The notes beneath the pieces are model-generated. The model was not told the DNA's origin. It made no database searches and saw only the letters and a program-made list of their open reading frames with translations. DNA of 64,000 nt from positions 62,001-126,000 of the forward strand of contig JAAZYR010000010.1 in the NCBI GenBank assembly GCA_014239555.1. The letters are read 5' to 3'. Source of the stretch: Acidimicrobiales bacterium. Lineage in GTDB: Bacteria > Actinomycetota > Acidimicrobiia > Acidimicrobiales > Poriferisodalaceae. Made by a program: the position numbers and the translations under genes. This document shows positions 22,660-60,839 of this stretch, piece by piece. Positions within the stretch are counted from its first letter, which is position 1; every line of letters begins with the position of its first letter.

Positions 22660-24210
22660 TTAGGCAAGCTCCAGATGGATCGGAAACCGATCCCGGATCA
22701 AAACTTCCGCTGTCGGGGTGATATGTGAAGGAGGTGGAAGAGCAAGAATTTCCGCAACTCGCCGGCTGGCCCGCTCCCGCACGTTTAACGAACCTCCGTC
22801 AGCCCAGTCTTCGGGGCTTAATCGGTCGCCAACAACCGGATACATGTATTCCGTTTGCATGACGCGAAGGGTTTGTTCGTGACCAAGGAAATGACCTGCT
22901 CCCTTGACAACTTCATCGATGACCTCAGCTGCTAGGGAATCGCTGTCGACCTCGATTCCTCTGATGGTGCGAGCCACCGCACCCAAAAGATCGTTGTCAA
23001 TCACGAGAGTTTCGAGTGAACAAGCCAAAAGCGAAGCCAGCATGCCGGCTGATTCAAACACCACGTTGGCACCCGCTTGAGCCGCCAAAGTAACGGTCGT
23101 TCCTTTTTCGTGACCGGCCTGTTGATCGGGCAGCTTCGAGTCCGTCATTCCAGCTGCGACGCCGGAAGGCAAACCAATCCAATTAATGAGCTGGGCTGCC
23201 GCTGCGTTGAGCACCGCCTCTTCTCCAGACCCACCAGACATAGCGCCGGTGCGAAGATCTGAGACAAAGGGCCACATACCCATCGTGCATGGGTGGCCCG
23301 GTGACAGCAGATTGACGCAAGTAAGTCCAGCAAGGCATTCTGCGAGGGCTTGGCTGAGTGAACCCGCCAGCGTTGCGGGAGAGGTTGCACCAGCTTGTCC
23401 AGCCGAGAGCAAATTAATTGGCATACCTACACGAACTTGTTCAGCCATACATAACGCTGAGTCCTCAGCAAATCTGAGGGGTGGCACGACAAAAGTGTTG
23501 TTGGCAATACAGAACGGCCGCTTGCGAAACTCGTCGGCGTCAGGGTCACCGGTCAACGCGATGTTGAATATTTGCGCCACTTCATGAACATGTTCGGGCT
23601 GAAAGAACGAGGTGCCGATGGGTTTGGTAGTACTCGCCATAACCGCATAAGCCGTGTTGAGATCTAGTTCTCTGGATGTTTCCATGTCGCGCGCAACCAC
23701 AGTCCGAACGTAAACATGGATGTGCTCAAGGGCGTTAATGACCCGACCAATTTCGTACACGTCCTTTATCGAGCTATGGCGAAAGGTCGAGGTTTCGTGC
23801 TCCAGCATGAGAACGGCGGCACCTCCTGTAGAAAAGTGGACCCGCTGCCCGCCGATGTGCACGTCATGTTCGGGTGAAAAGCCGTAGAGGGTGAACTCCT
23901 TTGCAGCATTTTCGATAGCGGTGTGAATCATCGACTTTGGGAAGTGGAGACGTTCATCCTTATCGAAGATCCCGCCAGCCGATGCGACTAAATCGATGAA
24001 CTCAGGAGTCGCCTGACCCATTCCAATGTCATCGAGCAGGGCCAGTGACGTATCAAAGATCTGAGTCATCTGCCTTTGGGTCAGCGGCTGATATGCGCCC
24101 CCTGGCATTCCAGGTTGCACGGCGCGGGCCTCTCGGGGAATCTCGGCAGAGCGTTTGGCGATTCGAGCGTTTCTCCCTCCAGCGCGTCGCGAGGGACTTC
24201 CGGTTGCCAC
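22660..24210 (-). CDS. MttB-family (trimethylamine/betaine-type) methyltransferase, non-pyrrolysine
   Basis: A 516-aa MttB-superfamily protein. Members remove a methyl group from quaternary or tertiary amines (trimethylamine, glycine betaine, proline betaine, carnitine) and pass it to a corrinoid protein. Seen are TRQMTQIFDTSLALLDDIGM near the start, HFSTGGAAVLMLEHET, a central STTKPIGTSFFQ and the late GMTDSKLPDQQAGHEKG. There is no in-frame amber codon, so it is not the pyrrolysine type of methanogens. It starts at GTG 24210 right after the upstream flavoprotein stop (24214). No corrinoid-protein gene is next to it. Confidence 0.9.
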   Translation of the reverse strand: MATGSPSRRAGGRNARIAKRSAEIPREARAVQPGMPGGAYQPLTQRQMTQIFDTSLALLDDIGMGQATPEFIDLVASAGGIFDKDERLHFPKSMIHTAIENAAKEFTLYGFSPEHDVHIGGQRVHFSTGGAAVLMLEHETSTFRHSSIKDVYEIGRVINALEHIHVYVRTVVARDMETSRELDLNTAYAVMASTTKPIGTSFFQPEHVHEVAQIFNIALTGDPDADEFRKRPFCIANNTFVVPPLRFAEDSALCMAEQVRVGMPINLLSAGQAGATSPATLAGSLSQALAECLAGLTCVNLLSPGHPCTMGMWPFVSDLRTGAMSGGSGEEAVLNAAAAQLINWIGLPSGVAAGMTDSKLPDQQAGHEKGTTVTLAAQAGANVVFESAGMLASLLACSLETLVIDNDLLGAVARTIRGIEVDSDSLAAEVIDEVVKGAGHFLGHEQTLRVMQTEYMYPVVGDRLSPEDWADGGSLNVRERASRRVAEILALPPPSHITPTAEVLIRDRFPIHLELA

Positions 24211-24213
24211 GAT

Positions 24214-26625
24214 TTACCCTTTTAGTTTCTTGTTTTGGGGATCAACAACCGGGGCGTCTAGCACTACAGCATCGCGCCGCTCGCTCATGATCTGAATGTC
24301 GAAGCGAGATCCGGCCTGCTCTAGTTCAGGAATGACATAGGCAAATGCGAGACTTTTGTCCGAGGTGTGACTCCACGTGCCACTTGTGGTGATGCCTACC
24401 AGCTTGTCGTTCGAGTACACGGGTTCGTTACCTCGACACTCGGTGTCTTTGGTGTCTACCTCGCAGTAGACCAGAACCATTGATAGTTGTTCTTTGGAAC
24501 GGGCAACGACTGCGTCTTTACCTATGAAATCTTTTGACTGGTCAACGAAACGTTCGATCCGAGCTTCAACCGGGGTGATTTCGGTAGTCAACTCTGAGCC
24601 CCACGCCTTGTAACCCTTCTCGATACGCATTTCGTTCATTGCGTAGCTGCCGAAGTGCACTAATCCATGAGGCTCACCGGATGTGACGAGGGCGTCGTAA
24701 AGCGTGAGCATCGAATCGATGGGGTGATGAAGCTCCCAACCCAATTCGCCGACGTAGCTCACTCTTAACGCGATACACGAAACACCCGCTACCTGAATTT
24801 CTTGGGCGTTGAGCCAGGCAAAGGTTCCATTCGAAAGGTCTGTTTCGGTGAGCGGTTGAATGATGTCTCTTGATCGAGGTCCGCTGACGGCCAAGATGGC
24901 TAGCTCGTTAGTCATATCGCGGATAGTCACCGTTTCATCCTCGAGAACGTGCTGGGTGAGCCAATCGAGGTCGTGAACTTGACCCATTATCGAGCTATTC
25001 AGATAGAAGCGATCTGGGCTTAGCCGGGTGATGGTCATCTCACATTCGATGCCCCCCTGAGGCGTCAACATGTGAGTAAGGCGGATGCCACCGTTTTTGG
25101 CGGGCAACTTGTTGGCCGATACACGTTCCAGTAGCGAAGCTGCGTCTCGTCCCGTTACCTCTATTTTGGTGAATGCTGTGAGGTCGGCAATACCCGCCCT
25201 TTCCCGAGTTCCTCGGACTTCGTCGCCGACAGCGTCTAGAGCGTTAGAACGTCGAAATGTGTGTTGTTCGAGCGGTCCGAAGTATTGAGGCCTTTCCCAA
25301 CCAAATATCTCCATCCATTGGGCACCGAGTTCTTGGAAACGATCATAAACAGGGGTGGTCTTTACGGGGCGACCAGCGAATCGTTCTTCGCCGGGAGATC
25401 GAACCTGGTACATCTCGTGGAATTCATCGATTGCTTTAGCTTCGGCAAAAGGCCCCTTTGGGTATGTGTGTGGACCGAAACGTCGTGGGTCCATCTCGGC
25501 GACGTTGATTTCGGTTTGGCCGTGAACCATCCACTGAGCTAGGTACTTGCCGGCGCCGGGTCCTTGAGTCACTCCGATGGAAGCGCCGGCGCAGACCCAA
25601 TAGTTTTTGAGCCCGGGCGCGGGCCCCATGAGGTAACCCGAGTCGGGGGTGTGGGTGATGGGGCCCGAAATTGTGGTTCGAATGCCAGCTTCGGCAAAAA
25701 CTGGGATTCGTTGAGCTGCCAACTCAAGCCAAGGCATCAATACATCGTGATCCGGTGGAGTTAAATAGAAATGCAGATCCCAGTCGATGCCGTCCACTCC
25801 GTACGTTTTGGCACCGGCGCGTTCGTAAGGCCCGATGATGAGCCCGTCGAGTTCACGTCGGTAGTAACACGACGCGCGAGGGTCGCGAATGACGGGCAAA
25901 TCAAAGTCTAAATTGGCGACTTCAGGTATGGCTTCGGTCACTAAATATTGATGAATCACTGAAACTATAGGGACGTCGTATCCGACCATTTCGCCGAGTT
26001 GTGGCGCATAACAGCCTGCCGCGTTTACGACGTGTTCTGCGATCAGTCGACCTTTGTTAGTAACGACTTCCCACCTGCCATCAGGTAATTGCCGCATTTC
26101 GGTCACCAAGGTGTGTCGCTCGATGTCGGCCCCCAGTTGACGAGCGCCTCGAGCCATGGCGTTTGTGGAGCTGCTGGGATCGCTCCATCCGTCGTTTGGT
26201 GTCCAAAAGCCTAATTTCACGTCGTCGACGTTGAGGAGTGGTTGATGCTCAACTATTTCAGCTGGGCTTAAGAGGTGGCTTTCCACTCCTACCAGGTCCA
26301 ATACGCCTTGCACGTAGCGAAACCAGTCGACTTCGGTGTCGTTTAGAGCTAAACGGATCGCTCCAGTCGGATGCCACCCTGCAGCCAGACCGGTTTCTTC
26401 TTCGAGTCGTGCGTAGAGCAGTGGTGCCTCCACGTGCACTTTGGCCATGTTGAGGCTGCCGATGAAGTGAGGAACCAGACCTGCTGCATGCCATGTAGAG
26501 CCTGAGGTGAGTTCGCCTTTCTCCAAAAGAACGGTGTCGGTCCACCCTTCGTGAGCAAGGTGGTAAAGCAAACCTACGCCCATGGCTCCGCCCCCGACGA
26601 TGGCTACCTGAACTTCGTCTTTCAT
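24214..26625 (-). CDS. Dimethylglycine/sarcosine dehydrogenase-like flavoprotein with GcvT domain
   Basis: An 803-aa two-domain enzyme. The N-terminal half is a DAO-type FAD oxidoreductase: GGGAMG (11-16) and SGSTWHAAGL (41-50), where the His is the expected covalent FAD attachment. The C-terminal half (from about 400) holds an FAO_M/GcvT tetrahydrofolate-binding aminomethyltransferase module (ELGWELHHPIDS, MRIEKGYKAWGSELTTEITP). The family oxidatively demethylates N-methyl-glycines and traps formaldehyde as methylene-THF. AAGGAGG lies 10 nt before ATG 26625. It is about the same length as its neighbour and probably an old paralogue. Confidence 0.9.
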   Translation of the reverse strand: MKDEVQVAIVGGGAMGVGLLYHLAHEGWTDTVLLEKGELTSGSTWHAAGLVPHFIGSLNMAKVHVEAPLLYARLEEETGLAAGWHPTGAIRLALNDTEVDWFRYVQGVLDLVGVESHLLSPAEIVEHQPLLNVDDVKLGFWTPNDGWSDPSSSTNAMARGARQLGADIERHTLVTEMRQLPDGRWEVVTNKGRLIAEHVVNAAGCYAPQLGEMVGYDVPIVSVIHQYLVTEAIPEVANLDFDLPVIRDPRASCYYRRELDGLIIGPYERAGAKTYGVDGIDWDLHFYLTPPDHDVLMPWLELAAQRIPVFAEAGIRTTISGPITHTPDSGYLMGPAPGLKNYWVCAGASIGVTQGPGAGKYLAQWMVHGQTEINVAEMDPRRFGPHTYPKGPFAEAKAIDEFHEMYQVRSPGEERFAGRPVKTTPVYDRFQELGAQWMEIFGWERPQYFGPLEQHTFRRSNALDAVGDEVRGTRERAGIADLTAFTKIEVTGRDAASLLERVSANKLPAKNGGIRLTHMLTPQGGIECEMTITRLSPDRFYLNSSIMGQVHDLDWLTQHVLEDETVTIRDMTNELAILAVSGPRSRDIIQPLTETDLSNGTFAWLNAQEIQVAGVSCIALRVSYVGELGWELHHPIDSMLTLYDALVTSGEPHGLVHFGSYAMNEMRIEKGYKAWGSELTTEITPVEARIERFVDQSKDFIGKDAVVARSKEQLSMVLVYCEVDTKDTECRGNEPVYSNDKLVGITTSGTWSHTSDKSLAFAYVIPELEQAGSRFDIQIMSERRDAVVLDAPVVDPQNKKLKG

Positions 26626-26665
26626 TTCGTCGCAACCTCCTTCACCTCGACAGACAAGTTGCCAA

Positions 26666-29113
26666 TCACATTTTGACCCTTTGATTTGTCGGGTCATAAA
26701 AACTCCGGATGCTGGGAGTCACCTGGCGTCGTCGAGTACCAATTTCAATTTCCCATTCACCGTTATCCAACCACTGCTGAGTTACCCCTTCGGGATTGGA
26801 TAGGTACGCCATCGTTAGGCATCGATCTTCGACATGGCTCCACATGCCGCCCGTCGTGCGACCAACGTAAATGTCATCTCGAAAGATGGGGTCGTCGTGG
26901 TAGCTAATCAAGTCAGCGTCTTCGATTCGAAATTGGATCAGTCGTTTTGGTTTCGGGGCACCTTTTTGGCTCAGGAGGGCTTCGCGGCCTTTGAAGCCAC
27001 CGGGTTTCTCCCAAGCGACAGCGAACCCGAGCCCCGCTTCGAGAGGCGTGTCCTCGTCGCAGATGTCGTGGCCCCAGTGCCGGTAGCCAGCTTCAAGGCG
27101 AAGTGAATTCATTGCATGGAATCCTGCGTGCCGAAGACCGTATGGTTCTCCACTGCTAGTTATTGCCCGGTACACAGCCTCAGTGTGGTGTGCGGGAACG
27201 TAAAGTTCCCAGCCGAGTTCCCCTACGTAGCTCATACGTAACGCCCGACAAGTCACGCCGGCGATCACGACGGACTTCATGGCGCCGAATTCGAACGCAT
27301 CCTTGGATAAGTCTGTTTTGGTGAGGGATTGAAGTAATTGTCGTGAGTTGGGGCCCATGACCCCTAGAACACTCCAGTCGTTCGTGTTGTCGGAGAGACG
27401 CACGTCGTATCCTCGACAACCTCGCCTCAGCCACGCCCAGTCGCGGGTCTGGGACGCTGCACTGGTCACGACAAAAAAATCATCTTCGTCGACTCGAGTG
27501 ACTGTTAAATCCGCCTCGATGCCGCCTCGCTCGTTCAACCACTGGGTGTACACCGCTCTACCCGGAGGGACGTTGATTGAATTCGCACTCATCGTTTCAA
27601 GGACGATAAGTGCATCGGGTCCGCTCAGAGAGAATTTTGCGAAGGAACTTTGATCAAAAAGTCCGACTGCCGTTCGGACCGCATCACACTCGGCTCGCAT
27701 GTTCTCATGCCAATTTTGTTTGCCGTAGGAATAGTCGTATTCGCGAGGTTGATCTTCGCTCGCGAACCAGTTTGGGCGTTCCCAGCCGGCTGTTTCACCG
27801 AAGACCGCTCCAGCGGCAGCCAAAACGTCGTGGAGTTCGCTTTTCCGAATTCCTCGTGCTGATTCGTACTGGCGAAACGGCCAGTGCATTGCATAAAGGA
27901 GACCTAACGATTCAGAAATTCGCTCCCGGAGGTAGGACGGATCATTTTGAAAAGGAAAAGCCCGACGGATGTCGACTCCAGACAAGTCCATCGGTGGGTA
28001 TCCATCGACGATCCAATCGGCAATAACCCAGCCGGCGCCCCCAGCGGTTTGAATGCCAACAGAATTGAATCCTGCAGCGACGAAACAGCGGTCGATTTCA
28101 GGTGATTCACCGAGATAAAAAGTGCCATCGGGGGTGAATGCTTCAGGGCCGTTGAAGAAGAGTTGTAAACCGGCTTCGCTTAAAGAAGGCATGCGTCGGC
28201 ATGCGGCTTCAAAAATCGGTCCGATATGGTCCCAGTCCTCAGGGAGGGTGCCAAAGCAAAAATCTCGAGGAATGCCGTCCAGATTCCAGATCTTTGCCTG
28301 AGGCTCGAAAAACCCCGCCATGATCTTCCCGGTTTCTTCCTTGAAGTAGGTGTAATTGCCGGGATCACGAACAATCGGCATTCCCCGCTCTACGCCCTCC
28401 AATGGTTCGGTGACGATGTAAAAGTGCTCGCATGCCTGTAACGGCACTTTGACACCGATGGTTTCGGCTAAATGTCGAGTCCACATGCCGGCCGCCATCA
28501 CTACGGTTTCAGCTTTGATGACCTGGTGGTCTTCAGTTTCAACGCCGACGCAACGATCACCGTCTGTCAGTAGTCGAGTGACAGCGACCTCCTCAACAAT
28601 CGTTGCCCCGCCGTTGCGAGCCCCCTTAGCTAAAGCCATGGTGGTGTCGACAGGAGATGTTTGCCCGTCTTTGGGAATGTGCAACGCACCGACAAGGTCA
28701 TCGGTGTGAAGAAGGGGGACCATCTCCCGTAGTTCGTCCATTCCTATCTCTCGAATGTCGACTCCTACAGTTGACGCCATCGAAATGCCTCGACGCATTT
28801 CTTCCCAGCGTTCTGAATCTGAAGCCACCGAAATTGAGCCCGGAGCCCTGTATCCGGTCGCTTGTCCCGTCTCATCTTCCAACTCTTCGAAGAGCCGTGT
28901 TGAATAGGTCGCCAGCTTTGTCAGCGAGTGAGTTGATTTCAATTGAGAAACCAATCCAGCGGCGTGCCAGGTAGTGCCCCCGGTCAACTGTCCCTGCTCG
29001 AGAAGTAGAACGTCGGATACGCCGCGCTTGGTCAGGTGATACGCGATGCTGGCACCGATAATGCCACCACCGATCACTATGACTTCGGCTTGGTCGGGCA
29101 ACTGAACAGACAT
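26666..29113 (-). CDS. Dimethylglycine/sarcosine dehydrogenase-like flavoprotein with GcvT domain (second copy)
   Basis: An 815-aa protein of the same architecture. FAD-binding GGGIIG is at 15-20 and TGGTTWHAAGL at 44-54 (probable covalent-flavin His50). The GcvT-type half (from about 430) has ELGWELYVPAHH and LRLEAGYRHWGHDICDEDTPLEAG. It is the first gene of the run 29113 to 21788 with the second flavoprotein, the MttB-like enzyme and the EamA transporter. Two such enzymes side by side would suit sequential removal of methyl groups (for example dimethylglycine to sarcosine to glycine), but which does which cannot be seen. Confidence 0.9.
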   Translation of the reverse strand: MSVQLPDQAEVIVIGGGIIGASIAYHLTKRGVSDVLLLEQGQLTGGTTWHAAGLVSQLKSTHSLTKLATYSTRLFEELEDETGQATGYRAPGSISVASDSERWEEMRRGISMASTVGVDIREIGMDELREMVPLLHTDDLVGALHIPKDGQTSPVDTTMALAKGARNGGATIVEEVAVTRLLTDGDRCVGVETEDHQVIKAETVVMAAGMWTRHLAETIGVKVPLQACEHFYIVTEPLEGVERGMPIVRDPGNYTYFKEETGKIMAGFFEPQAKIWNLDGIPRDFCFGTLPEDWDHIGPIFEAACRRMPSLSEAGLQLFFNGPEAFTPDGTFYLGESPEIDRCFVAAGFNSVGIQTAGGAGWVIADWIVDGYPPMDLSGVDIRRAFPFQNDPSYLRERISESLGLLYAMHWPFRQYESARGIRKSELHDVLAAAGAVFGETAGWERPNWFASEDQPREYDYSYGKQNWHENMRAECDAVRTAVGLFDQSSFAKFSLSGPDALIVLETMSANSINVPPGRAVYTQWLNERGGIEADLTVTRVDEDDFFVVTSAASQTRDWAWLRRGCRGYDVRLSDNTNDWSVLGVMGPNSRQLLQSLTKTDLSKDAFEFGAMKSVVIAGVTCRALRMSYVGELGWELYVPAHHTEAVYRAITSSGEPYGLRHAGFHAMNSLRLEAGYRHWGHDICDEDTPLEAGLGFAVAWEKPGGFKGREALLSQKGAPKPKRLIQFRIEDADLISYHDDPIFRDDIYVGRTTGGMWSHVEDRCLTMAYLSNPEGVTQQWLDNGEWEIEIGTRRRQVTPSIRSFYDPTNQRVKM

Positions 29114-55334: not shown

Positions 55335-55634
55335 CTAGCCGATCAGTTCGAACCATTCTTCGAAACTAATGAAAGGACCAGAGGCTTCGACCTCAATTAG
55401 CTGAGCTGCTGATAGTTGAGCGATGACGGTTGACGATTTCTCGACGCTCTCATATTTGTTCACGTTGACGAACTTGCCGATCGCTGCTGCGTAACCACTG
55501 AGGATTTGTTCAGTGCCGGCGGCTTCGAGAATTGCCATTTGCTTGCCGAGTAGTTCGTTCCACTGGTCGCTTCCGACAGTAACCCCGTCGTAAGCGCGAC
55601 CAGGGGCCGCTACGGAGAAAGAGGTGTAACTCAT
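55335..55634 (-). CDS. Hypothetical protein (99 aa)
   Basis: A 99-aa protein from ATG 55634, with GGGA 9 nt upstream; ATG 55646 is possible too. It begins MSYTSFSVAAPGRAYDGVTV. It has an alpha-helical middle (LLGKQMAILEAAGTEQILSG) and ends EEWFELIG. No family or motif recognised. It lies alone between tRNA-Lys and tRNA-His. Its own GC and codon use look like the neighbours, so it is probably real. Confidence 0.6.
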   Translation of the reverse strand: MSYTSFSVAAPGRAYDGVTVGSDQWNELLGKQMAILEAAGTEQILSGYAAAIGKFVNVNKYESVEKSSTVIAQLSAAQLIEVEASGPFISFEEWFELIG

Positions 55635-55813
55635 GTTTAATCCCATTCTTTTGGAGCTGAAATGTGTGTGCCGACAGGCTAGGACACAGCCGTGGACCGG
55701 ACCCCAAGTTGCTTCGCGCGCGTACCCGGCCCAAAGGGCCTAATAGTTGGTGGTTTGCGTGACAATTACTTGAAATGCCAGCGACGTGTTGCTCATTTGA
55801 CCTTTACTGGTCT

Positions 55814-55997: not shown

Positions 55998-56960
55998 ATG
56001 CCAACCACTACACAGCGTCGCCAACCCCCGGTTGACTACATCCCCCGGATCACTGCCCAATACTCCGGTTTGGGATATGGCGAATACCGCTGGCTTGAAA
56101 GCGAAGACGCACCGAACTGGGTTCCTCTTTCGAAACCATTGTCAGAGTCGAAGCTAGGGCTTATCTGCACCGGTGGTATCTATGTCGAAGGTCAGACAGC
56201 GTTCCACTTCAAAGACGACACGAGTTACCGGACCATCCCAACAGACGTTAATACAGCCGATCTGCGAGCCACCCATTTCGCGTACGACCTCACCGACGCC
56301 AGAAAAGACATCAACGTCGTCTTCCCAATCGAACAACTGCGATCCATGATCGATGAAAACGCGCTCGGATCCGTCAGCCCCAACGCGTACACCCTCATGG
56401 GAGGCATCTACAGCACCAGACGGGTCGTAGAAGAACTTATCCCTGCCTTGGTGGATCGCGTACTTGCTGATGAAGTTGACGTCGTACTACTCGTACCGGT
56501 TTGACCTGTCTGCCATCAGACCGTGGGTCTGATTGCGCGAGCCATTGAAGCAGCAGGCGTTCCGACATTGTCGATGTCCAGTGCCCGAGACATCACTCGA
56601 TCCGCGTGGCCGGCCCGCTCGGTGTACCTCGACTATCCGCTAGGTCACACCGCAGGTCGCCCCAACCAGCAGGAGTTGAACGCATCCATCATGCGCGACA
56701 CTCTGTCGGCGTTTGAATCACTCACGGAACCTGGAGCGATGGCCCATCTTGACTATCGGTGGTCGGATAACGACGACTGGAAAGACAAAGTCTTCGCTCC
56801 CGTAGAACCAAGCGAGTCTGCCAGCGCATCATCGGAATACGACGATGACCGAGTCGAGCGACACGAGACACCCCAGTACCAGAATGAAGATGACCACGCC
56901 GCCGCCGCGCTCACCCATGACAGCGAAGAATGTCTGGTTTGTGCCGGCATCGACTACTGA
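55998..56960 (+). CDS. Selenocysteine-containing GrdB-like (glycine/sarcosine/betaine reductase selenoprotein B family) protein
   Basis: The full frame, read through TGA at 56502-56504 (codon 169), gives 320 residues, ending at TGA 56958. The first part (VDYIPRITAQYSGLGYGEY; NVVFPIEQLRSMI) matches an aerobic GrdB-like family. Around the TGA it reads VVLLVPV-U-PVCHQTVGLIARAIEAAG; as I recall, cysteine homologues have VPVCPVCHQ, so U replaces the first Cys of a CxxC. The second Cys is 172. A hairpin with a GUG loop follows (56512-56536), as expected for a bacterial SECIS. It has an acidic C-terminal tail ending ECLVCAGIDY. The stop overlaps the Nudix start (TGATG), which implies that the long form is made. 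Its reaction is unknown; the family need not be a glycine reductase. Confidence 0.87.
56512..56536 (+). promoter_or_regulatory. Bacterial SECIS-like hairpin in the GrdB-like gene
   Basis: ATCAGACC (56515-56522) pairs perfectly with GGTCTGAT (56526-56533), with a GUG loop (56523-56525), extended by G-C and C-G pairs past one C-T mismatch. The loop is 19-21 nt after the TGA, the distance expected for SelB binding in bacteria. Confidence 0.78.
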
Positions 56961-57862
56961 TGGCGCAACCTGAACAAACTGCCTCCGGTGGGCACCCCTC
57001 ACCAGGTTCAGGTGGCGACTACGACCCTGAATCAATCGTCATCCGCTCAGCAGCAACGGTTCTTATTCTCGCCGATCGTCCTGATCTTCAAGTCCTCATG
57101 TTGAAACGCAACGCCAGATCAATTTTTGTGGGCGACATGTGGGTGTTTCCTGGAGGCGCAGTCGACCCTGAAGACGGCACGCCTGAAGCTGACGCCGTCG
57201 TGGAAGGTCTCACCGATACTGAAGCAAGCAGCAACCTGGGCGTCGAAAAAGGTGGAGTCGCTTTTTGGGTAGCTGCCCTGCGCGAAACCTTCGAAGAAGC
57301 AGGCATCTTGCTGGCGCGCACCCCAGGAGAGAAAGAATTAGTGGATCTGTCCCAGCGCGACAAAGAAGAACGATTTGGGACCTACCGAGCCGGCGTGAAC
57401 GCGGGCGAAGTGGACTTCGTGTCGATGGTCCGAGAACAGGGACTCGTATTAGACGGTTCGGGGGTTCACTACGTCAGCAGATGGGTGACACCGCTAGGCC
57501 CACCTCGCCGTTACGACACGCGATTTTTTGTGACTGCCATGCCACAAGGCCAACAACCACTTCACGATGATGACGAAGCAGTGCATCACGAATGGGTCCG
57601 ACCAGCGGAGGCCCTCGCTCTCAACGAATCCGATGAAATGTTGATGATGACACCCACCGTGTCAATGCTGAATCGCCTGTCCCGGTATCGGAACGCCGCT
57701 GAGGCAATATCAGCGGCCGAAGGCAACAACGAAGAGCACGACGAACTGGTTCGGATCAGGTACGCCACCGAGGGGCCTGCGCGTATCGCCTGGCCCGGCG
57801 ATCCTGACTACGACGAAGCTGATCCCCGTGTCGAATCAGGAATGGTTCGCTGGCCGGGTTGA
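56960..57862 (+). CDS. Nudix hydrolase
   Basis: A 300-aa Nudix protein of the long type: SAATVLILADRPDLQVLMLKRNARSIFVGDMWVFPGGAVDPED and, after a roughly 35-residue insertion, WVAALRETFEEAGILL. The Nudix box REx2EEx-type REtfEEAG coordinates Mg2+ with Glu residues. The insertion is like that of NUDT19/CoA-pyrophosphatase-type proteins. Its start overlaps the stop of the GrdB-like selenoprotein (TGATG), so it is translationally coupled and perhaps functionally linked. Substrate unknown. Confidence 0.88.
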   Translation: MAQPEQTASGGHPSPGSGGDYDPESIVIRSAATVLILADRPDLQVLMLKRNARSIFVGDMWVFPGGAVDPEDGTPEADAVVEGLTDTEASSNLGVEKGGVAFWVAALRETFEEAGILLARTPGEKELVDLSQRDKEERFGTYRAGVNAGEVDFVSMVREQGLVLDGSGVHYVSRWVTPLGPPRRYDTRFFVTAMPQGQQPLHDDDEAVHHEWVRPAEALALNESDEMLMMTPTVSMLNRLSRYRNAAEAISAAEGNNEEHDELVRIRYATEGPARIAWPGDPDYDEADPRVESGMVRWPG

Positions 57863-58013: not shown

Positions 58014-58031
58014 CTAAGCTGACAACTGAAA

Positions 58032-58122
58032 ACCGGGGAGCTCGGATCGACCGGGCTGAGAGGCCAGATACCCATGCTGGCGACCCGTAGGACCTGATCT
58101 GGGTAATTCCAGCGGAGGTAGC
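58032..58122 (+). promoter_or_regulatory. Thiamine pyrophosphate (TPP) riboswitch
   Basis: The conserved elements are in order: GGGG at the 5' side, the CTGAGA box (58055-58060), ACCCGTAGGACCTGATCTGG and GTAATTCCAGCGGAGG. The last stretch contains the ribosome site of thiB (GGAGG, 6-7 nt before ATG 58124), so TPP binding most likely blocks translation. The only notable deviation is GTAGGACC for the usual GTAGAACC. Confidence 0.93.
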
Positions 58123-58123
58123 C

Positions 58124-59185
58124 ATGCCAATACGTTCCGTCCTGTTGGTTTCGCTGTGCATAGCGGGTGGGGCACTCGCCGCATGTGCTTCTGACACATC
58201 GGCACCTGACGGCGCTAACGAAGATCTCGAAAACGTCCAATCGGTCGCATTGACCTTGGTGACACACGACTCCTTCGCCATCTCAGAAGGAGTTTTTGAA
58301 GCCTTCTTTGAACAAACGGGAATTCGCGTTGAAGTGCTGACCTCAGGTGACGTTGGTTCGTTGGTCGCCCAAACGATATTGAGTTCCGACAACCCGGTGG
58401 GTGACGTGGTTTTCGGGGTCGACAACACGTTCATGCAGCGCGTGCTTGACCGGTCAATTCTCGAGCCGTACAAGACAACAGAACTCGTTAACGTCCCCGA
58501 ACGGTTTCAACTCGACTCGACGCACCGACTGACCCCCATCGATTACGGCGATGTCTGCGTCAATTATTGGATTGATGCTCTCAACGGGCCACCGCCTGTG
58601 GCCTTGATGGATCTGGTCTTACCGGAATTCTCAGGAAGCTTGGTCGTACAAAATCCAGAAACTTCCTCACCAGGTATGGCGTTTTTGTTAGCCACCATTG
58701 CTGGCACACCCGATTGGGAACAATTCTGGACCCAATTGAAGGCGAACAGTGTGGCCGTCACCAACAGCTGGGAGAGCGCCTATTACAGCGAGTTCATAGC
58801 TGGAGGAGGAAGTCGTCCAATGGTTGTCTCGTACGCCTCTAGCCCGGTCGCCGAAGTTATTTACGCCGACCCACCAGTCGATGTTCCCCCCACGGGCGTG
58901 TTACTTGACTCCTGCTTTCGTCAGATCGAGTTCGCCGGCATCCTTTCAGGAACGGATCACCCGAAAGAGGCCCGAAGTTTGATTGATTTCCTCTTGAGCC
59001 CCACCTTCCAGAACGAAATTCCGATGAATATGTTCATGTATCCGGTATCTCAAAAAGCTGAGCTCCCTGAGGAATTTGTTAAACATTCACAGTTGACCGA
59101 GAATCCGTTGTCACTCGATCCCGCTGAGATAGAGGACAAGCGAAAAGCCTGGACTGAACGTTGGGTGGAAATCGTTCTTGATTAA
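58124..59185 (+). CDS. thiB: Thiamine ABC transporter, substrate-binding lipoprotein
   Basis: A 353-aa extracytoplasmic binding protein: signal peptide and lipobox (MPIRSVLLVSLCIAGGALAAC, Cys21), then the TbpA-like LVTHDSFAISEGVFEAFFEQTGIRVEVLTSGDVGSLV, DVVFGVDNTFM, PIDYGDVCVNYW and ANSVAVTNSWESAYYSEF. It captures thiamine (or TPP/TMP) outside the membrane. It lies under a TPP riboswitch and is followed 10 bp downstream by the permease. Confidence 0.9.
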   Translation: MPIRSVLLVSLCIAGGALAACASDTSAPDGANEDLENVQSVALTLVTHDSFAISEGVFEAFFEQTGIRVEVLTSGDVGSLVAQTILSSDNPVGDVVFGVDNTFMQRVLDRSILEPYKTTELVNVPERFQLDSTHRLTPIDYGDVCVNYWIDALNGPPPVALMDLVLPEFSGSLVVQNPETSSPGMAFLLATIAGTPDWEQFWTQLKANSVAVTNSWESAYYSEFIAGGGSRPMVVSYASSPVAEVIYADPPVDVPPTGVLLDSCFRQIEFAGILSGTDHPKEARSLIDFLLSPTFQNEIPMNMFMYPVSQKAELPEEFVKHSQLTENPLSLDPAEIEDKRKAWTERWVEIVLD

Positions 59186-59195
59186 CGATTCCAAG

Positions 59196-60839
59196 ATGTC
59201 AGGCTGGCCCCAATTTGTTCGACGGGTACCAACTGCCATCATCGCTTTTGTCCCCATGGTGTTCTTGGGGCTCTTCTTCTTCTACCCCGTCCTTACGATT
59301 CTGGCTAGTTCACTAACCCAGGGATGGGGTGGTTTCGCGGACATCTTTCAATCATCGCGGGCAAGAGGCGCACTCTGGTTCACCGCGTGGCAGGCAACCG
59401 CATCCACAGCACTCACCCTTATCTTGGCGCTGCCCAGTGCTGCTGTGATAGCTCGAACAGATGGAAGGACGGGAGCGTGGTTCAAAGCACTGGTGACTGT
59501 TCCCTTCGTGCTCCCCACCATCGTCGTCGGTGGAGCATTCAAAGAGCTATTCGAAGGAATGAATTCAACGTTTGGTTTACCCAACTTGAACCACACCGCA
59601 ATTGCAGTCATCATCGCCCACTCATTCTTTAATTTCGCTGTCGTGGCACGAACCGTTGGGGTGTTTTGGTCTGGGTTAGATCATCAACTTGAAGAACAAG
59701 CTCGAACGCTCGGGAGTAACAGCAGGCAAGTTTTTTGGAGGGTGACCTGGCCGCGACTGAAGCCGGCGATCCTTGCTGCCGCTGCCATAACATTTCTTTT
59801 CTCATTCACGTCTTTTGGTGTCGTGTTGGTCCTAGGAGGACTTCGCCAAGCCACCATAGAAACTGAAATATATCGACACGCAATCATTCGCGGAGATATG
59901 ACGAGTAGCGCAACTTTGGCTTTAATCCAAGTCGTCGCTGTTCTTGTCCTTGTCCTGGTGAATTCGACCCTTGAACGACGCACCAGCGTTACGACTCGGA
60001 TGATACGTAGTCCCATAACGCCGCTTAGACCTAGAACCAAAGCAGGAATCACCTGTTTCACCCTGGTTTTCTTAGGTACTCCTCTTTTCGTGATGATCGA
60101 ACGGTCGTTATCTTTCGGAGGCGGATACGGCCTGCAGAACTACAGAGCACTTTTTGACAAGGTGCCCCAACTTCCCACCACCGCAATGAGCGCTCTAGGC
60201 AACTCCCTTACCTACGCAGCGATTGCGACGGTGGTGGCCCTTACCGTCGGAATCATCTGCGCTATGGCGATAGTTACTCGACGTAAATTGGTGAGTCGAT
60301 TTTTCGACCTCGGTGCCATGCTTCCACTGGGGGTGTCAGCCGTCACGGTCGGCTTCGGAATCTTGATCGCCTTAGACGAAGCTCCGTTCGATTGGCGAAC
60401 TCGCTGGTGGATTGTGCCCATTGCGCATGCCTTAGTCGCCGTGCCATTCGTTGTGCGCTCAGTCGTACCGATGCTGAGAAGAATTCACCCGTCTCTGCGA
60501 GAAGCAGCGGCTCTTCTCGGTGCTTCTCCATCACGGATTCGTCGACAGATCGACGTGCCGCTCATTGCCCGCGGCATAGCCATCGCAGGCGGCTTCGCGT
60601 TCGCGATTTCACTGGGTGAATTTGGGGCGACGTCTTTTCTGCCGAGACGAGCGGACACGCTCACGGCACCCCAGGCGGTGTTCAGACTCTTGGGAACACC
60701 TGGCGATCTACTCCGCGGTCAAGCTATGGCCCTCTCAGTTGTTCTCGCAGTGGCGGTAGCCGCAACGGTCATCACCTCAGAAATGCTCTCTTTCAATACT
60801 GCTAATAGGTCTCGGAGAAAGTCGCCGATAGGTTCCTAG
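59196..60839 (+). CDS. thiP: Thiamine ABC transporter, fused two-domain permease
   Basis: A 547-aa membrane protein with about 12 helices made of two ABC permease units. Each carries an EAA-type loop: EEQARTLGSNSRQVFWRVTWPRLKPA in the first and REAAALLGASPSRIRRQIDVPLIARG in the second. It forms the membrane channel for thiamine with ThiB. ATG 59196 is chosen; TTG 59178 lies inside the thiB end. No ThiQ ATPase gene follows, so the ATPase must be elsewhere or shared. Confidence 0.9.
   Translation: MSGWPQFVRRVPTAIIAFVPMVFLGLFFFYPVLTILASSLTQGWGGFADIFQSSRARGALWFTAWQATASTALTLILALPSAAVIARTDGRTGAWFKALVTVPFVLPTIVVGGAFKELFEGMNSTFGLPNLNHTAIAVIIAHSFFNFAVVARTVGVFWSGLDHQLEEQARTLGSNSRQVFWRVTWPRLKPAILAAAAITFLFSFTSFGVVLVLGGLRQATIETEIYRHAIIRGDMTSSATLALIQVVAVLVLVLVNSTLERRTSVTTRMIRSPITPLRPRTKAGITCFTLVFLGTPLFVMIERSLSFGGGYGLQNYRALFDKVPQLPTTAMSALGNSLTYAAIATVVALTVGIICAMAIVTRRKLVSRFFDLGAMLPLGVSAVTVGFGILIALDEAPFDWRTRWWIVPIAHALVAVPFVVRSVVPMLRRIHPSLREAAALLGASPSRIRRQIDVPLIARGIAIAGGFAFAISLGEFGATSFLPRRADTLTAPQAVFRLLGTPGDLLRGQAMALSVVLAVAVAATVITSEMLSFNTANRSRRKSPIGS

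Follow-up and report, generated by a model that had tools for sequence, protein, structure and literature searches.

A PrdB-like selenoprotein with a conserved C-terminal CxxC pair, encoded without a PrdA/GrdE-type subunit, in a member of the Acidimicrobiales

The stretch of DNA analysed here (the window, 64,000 nucleotides of a contig from an Acidimicrobiales bacterium) carries a reading frame which is interrupted by a TGA and continues in frame beyond it. The question is whether this codon ends the protein or encodes selenocysteine (Sec), and, in the latter case, what kind of selenoprotein is made. An ORF finder lists two ORFs, which would suit a genuine stop or an error in sequencing, with two pieces or a pseudogene being read as one gene. 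Read through, the gene spans positions 55998-56960 of the forward strand, from the ATG at 55998 to a stop TGA at 56958-56960, and encodes a PrdB-like protein of 320 residues; codon 169 is the TGA at 56502-56504, and 151 further open codons follow, in line with the open frame first noticed from the sequence. The TGA occupies the first position of a CxxC-like motif, VPV-U-PVC-HQ, as the sequence-only reading had proposed. The UxxC pair is invariant in alignment A1, and its second residue, Cys172 (56511-56513), is kept in at least 90% of alignment A3. The TIGR04483 (PrdB) profile matches the read-through product from residue 39 to residue 257, spanning the TGA (E 7e-48), and the alignment suggested as a check on the downstream part thus speaks for read-through. 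The same codon is TGA in 30 of the 30 best order-level loci, and in all of 80 loci from public genomes, these being the best 80 of 223 relatives retrieved by a scan of named genomes with patterns able to catch Cys forms; the two sets partly overlap. The best 80 come from Acidimicrobiia, Binatia, Deltaproteobacteria, Myxococcota, Gamma- and Alphaproteobacteria and Chloroflexi. In the host order and below, relatives occur in 54 of 99 genomes, and almost every match contains a single in-frame TGA. Homologues with Cys at this position had been expected, but the best 80 of 223 relatives include no Cys form. The sole Cys form seen (HCPVCHQ, locus L059) belongs to a paralogous subfamily, and its genome (G078) hosts other Sec copies and selB. 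The overlap of the long-form stop with the next start was also seen correctly: TGATG at 56958-56962 joins the selenoprotein stop to the ATG of a Nudix hydrolase gene (56960-57862, forward strand, PF00293), and this ATG shares its frame with the ORF that the list starts at 56930.

A hairpin of the SECIS type, including two lower pairs, covers positions 56512-56536 of the forward strand. The upper stem is a perfect 8-bp helix (56515-56522 paired with 56526-56533), closed by a GUG loop (56523-56525) which begins 19 nt past the TGA and places a G in the apical loop. On average 7.61 of the 8 upper pairs are formed in 76 distinct sequences, versus 5.44 +/- 0.12 when synonymous codons are redrawn from each gene's own usage, the maximum in 1000 trials being at most 5.80; the synonymous-codon null is rejected. 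In an alignment of 43 sequences 96.0% of the cells are paired, and cells changed on both sides number 29, where shuffling gives 11.1 on average. The alignment reaches a covariation score of 0.243 versus 0.129 for shuffled alignments, none of 500 shuffles scoring as high, and sliding the hairpin partner abolishes the signal. The clearest case is a change from A-U to U-A at columns 19 and 27, where Thr/Ser and the wobble base of a Gly codon change together. Compensatory changes in the hairpin clearly exceed what coding for the protein would demand. What had been called a strong SECIS hairpin with a GUG loop stands as to stem and loop, but its strength is not borne out: the fold energy taken by itself is ordinary (z -1.43, not significant), and was dropped as evidence in favor of covariation.

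The genome of the host, 2.72 Mb in size and 95.6% complete, contains all four genes which the sequence-only reading had advised to look for: selA adjoins selB, the tRNA-Sec gene (selC) scores 65.5 bits, and selD itself carries an in-frame TGA, as a Sec-containing selD. SelB is present in 52 of the 54 carriers of PrdB-like genes versus 21 of 45 non-carriers; outside the host's family the figures are 13 of 15 versus 21 of 45 (p = 0.0076). The two carriers lacking SelB are metagenome-assembled genomes, 84-86% complete and in more than 500 contigs. In one of them (G039, 84% complete, 510 contigs) a PrdB-like gene with an in-frame TGA lies at 1716-2306 of contig C451, SelB and tRNA-Sec being below cut-off. 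Since homology crosses the TGA, the TGA is conserved, the hairpin covaries and the Sec machinery resides in the genome, the TGA at 56502-56504 is, by comparative sequence analysis, a Sec codon, and the protein a genuine selenoprotein, as first proposed. Sequence conservation both before and after the TGA refutes a stop codon or a sequencing error; the recurrence of the TGA in every locus of the two partly overlapping sets, hairpin covariation and the full Sec machinery speak against them too, and this reading is left with a negligible probability.

The relationship to known families is less direct than the first description, GrdB-like, implied. At the superfamily level the description is sound, because the protein passes the PF07355 GRDB model (29.1 bits, gathering cut-off 22). 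Yet, TIGR04483 fits far better than the best GrdB-type model (E 7e-48 versus 6e-13), although its 163.1 bits fall below the 300-bit equivalog cut-off for PrdB, and TIGR01917 (GrdB) gives 40.2 bits against a cut-off of 602.2. In the tree, nine genuine GrdB encoded beside GrdE split off with 100/100 support on a branch of length 2.04, and genuine GrdB is excluded on account of this separate branch. Authentic clostridial PrdB is not in the tree, and the distance to PrdB rests on the curated model. The UxxCxxC motif of GrdB is missing: UPVCHQT is found here versus UGTCTRC in most of the control GrdB. Four Desulfobacterota GrdB encoded beside GrdE (L167, L168, L171 and L172) have themselves a motif without the first Cys (UGTGTRC, UGTANRC). 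The protein is, judging from the profile score and the partners missing from carrier genomes, not a working PrdB, and is best placed in a clade spanning several phyla, which has PrdB of D-proline reductase as a relative but is distinct from it, an assignment shared with the overall reading given below.

A feature which the first description had overlooked, along with the absence of PrdA and GrdE, is a second pair of cysteines, Cys312 and Cys315 (CLVC, 56931-56942, forward strand), at the C-terminus. Among the best 80 of 223 relatives a CxxC falls within the last 30 residues in 75, across phyla, and within the last 20 residues in 74, versus about 0.08 expected in 80 if Cys were as frequent there as in the remainder of the protein. 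The pair is found in 27 of 30 order-level relatives versus 0 of 19 paralogues. The layout is that of a PrdB-homologous core followed by a variable linker and by a CxxC usually 6-13 residues from the end. Flanking residues vary by phylum (ECLVCAGIDY, EACGVCETAA, GCPTCVFLE, GGCGSCVGAE), and the conserved thing is therefore the Cys pair itself. The five readable ends of the nine GrdB stop 3-10 residues past the core, with no tail CxxC. The pair has been lost at eight loci (L137, L140, L154, L156, L160, L029, L030 and L031) which keep UxxC, and hence the tail is not essential in every member; L137, for instance, reads HQVR, with both tail cysteines gone, where its near relative L123 reads CQVC. 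The fold is predicted with confidence (pLDDT 90.2), the end of the tail with low confidence. Solved structures include no sequence relative and gave no Foldseek match below E 1e-3; the best VIA-align Z, 7.6, equals the usual background. These comparisons gave no lead on function, and the absence of a match does not show a new fold.

PrdB and GrdB are subunits with partners, and partners were looked for in the carriers. PF09338, the domain of the GrdE/PrdA-type pyruvoyl subunit, is absent from all 26 carrier genomes searched, while the same model is matched over its whole length in 6 of the 198 genomes used as controls, earlier control searches having been silent. The PrdA model TIGR04480, which cross-matches GrdE in 4 of 4 controls, finds nothing in 15 carriers. 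For PrdC the best score among carriers is 49.4 bits against a cut-off of 490, in a search with no true-PrdC genome as positive control. No neighbour gene is conserved across phyla, and the Nudix gene holds its place only within the host's family (16 loci). At 18 loci the neighbours include enoyl-CoA hydratase genes; most of these are not orthologous from one phylum to another (about 25-39% identity), and they were read as chance neighbours and rejected as a link to a pathway. A link to betaine or sarcosine found no evidence either. It had been considered because of an MttB-like methyltransferase gene (22660-24210, reverse strand, 516 aa, non-pyrrolysine as it has no in-frame TAG) and the adjacent sarcosine-oxidase/dimethylglycine-dehydrogenase-like gene (24214-26697), which together cover 22660-26697. 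Despite having no in-frame TAG, the MttB-like gene scores above the Rfam PYLIS_3 cut-off at 23049-23148. Elsewhere in the window, a TPP riboswitch (58024-58137, forward strand, 59.3 bits) reaches into the beginning of a probable thiamine ABC transporter (58124-60839), and a 103-aa ORF with no Pfam match lies between tRNA-Lys and tRNA-His (55335-55646, reverse strand).

To our knowledge, anaerobic amino-acid reductases are the only enzymes in which PrdB/GrdB chemistry has been described, and the earlier remark that the family has no known role outside anaerobic glycine reductase holds when stated for this wider group of enzymes. A job different from the anaerobic role of PrdB is probable, because the usual partner subunit is missing and the protein itself bears a second redox pair, placed on a flexible tail. 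With both partners missing and a C-terminal CxxC fused in cis, an internal relay is the economical reading. The protein is probably a stand-alone selenol reductase, working without a PrdA/GrdE subunit, in which the tail CxxC reduces the Se-S bond in cis; a probability of roughly 0.6 is given to this reading as a whole. Sec169 would attack the substrate, or accept its oxidising equivalent, and Cys172 would close a selenenyl-sulfide with it; the flexible Cys312/Cys315 pair would then fold back to reduce the Se-S bond, and itself be reduced again by thioredoxin or a comparable thiol donor. UxxC chemistry, the relay role of the tail and the nature of the donor are all inferred.

Alternatively, the protein could carry out reductive C-N or C-X cleavage of the PrdB/GrdB type, through a Sec-carbon selenoether, with no pyruvoyl group or with the help of an unrelated subunit whose gene lies elsewhere; the tail would then be an ordinary electron entry site. 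PrdB is the closest model, and a paralogous group (L051-L053) reads UPLD, with Sec kept and Asp in place of the second Cys, as suits Sec acting as a carbon nucleophile. This alternative is rather unlikely, given that the carriers searched have neither PrdA nor GrdE, and that no partner gene is conserved next to the locus. The host itself has four paralogous Sec forms, including the Sec169 protein. The other three (positions counted within each locus), all on the reverse strand and without a tail CxxC, are L048 (8782-9795, 338 aa, UPVCHQ), L049 (7802-9106, 435 aa, UPVCTG) and L050 (8480-9631, 384 aa, UPLCTR).

The selenol reductase with a cis relay has also to be weighed against a selenol peroxidase serving in oxidative stress, in which peroxide would oxidise Sec169, and Cys172 and the tail CxxC would resolve the product. 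The host, a marine actinobacterium which probably lives aerobically, has a gene for haem-copper oxidase subunit I, consistent with aerobic life; a stand-alone gene suits a general antioxidant, and peroxidase activity of GrdB was reported by a paper cited in PMC3091704. Many invariant residues have no redox role (Y14, Y22, W32, D104, H173, Q174 and R207), suggesting a specific substrate pocket, and no antioxidant genes were noticed nearby, which makes a peroxidase improbable. On a wider scale, and at somewhat less than even odds, the reductase reading might extend to a widespread class of single-gene, Sec-only reductases in aerobic-type respirers, in which a cis CxxC arm replaces both pyruvoyl subunit and PrdC, acting on a substrate new to the superfamily.

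We know of no demonstrated function for marine PrdB-type selenoproteins. Such proteins, which the sequence-only reading had not taken into account, have been described since 2005 (PMC1088965, PMC2398784): 42 genes were counted in the Sargasso Sea (PMC1088965), 235 Sec and 110 Cys forms in GOS, and the type ranks among the commonest Sec proteins of surface-sea metagenomes (PMC2398784). By description, having UxxC and being assigned to PrdB, they are very likely of the same kind as the protein analysed here, although neither a host nor a test for PrdA is given in the passages on them. In the main text of the two reports the term "C-terminal" is not mentioned, and the passages on CxxC are not about PrdB. 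Relative to that text, what is new are the named lineages, the CxxC of the tail and the finding that carriers have no PrdA/GrdE; the last two provide concrete, testable statements on how such proteins could work.

Clostridial PrdB (TIGR04483; C. sticklandii CLOST_2232, Sec152 of 242 aa, PMC3091704) shares with the protein the homologous core (residues 39-257), aligned across Sec, and Sec in UxxC. Here 38 extra residues precede the matched part and 63 follow it, the latter holding the CxxC, and the host has no PrdA, no PrdC above cut-off and an aerobic-type oxidase. GrdB, GrdF and GrdH (TIGR01917, TIGR01918, PF07355) share the PF07355 superfamily and an aligned Sec, but control GrdB beside GrdE mostly read TSTUGTCTRCGAT, versus VPVUPVCHQ and no GrdE here. 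In the clostridial D-proline reductase the pyruvoyl group of PrdA holds proline, Sec of PrdB attacks and Cys closes the Se-S bond, which the C-terminal CxxU of PrdC has been proposed to reduce (PMC3091704); this role of PrdC is the one proposed here for the tail CxxC in cis.
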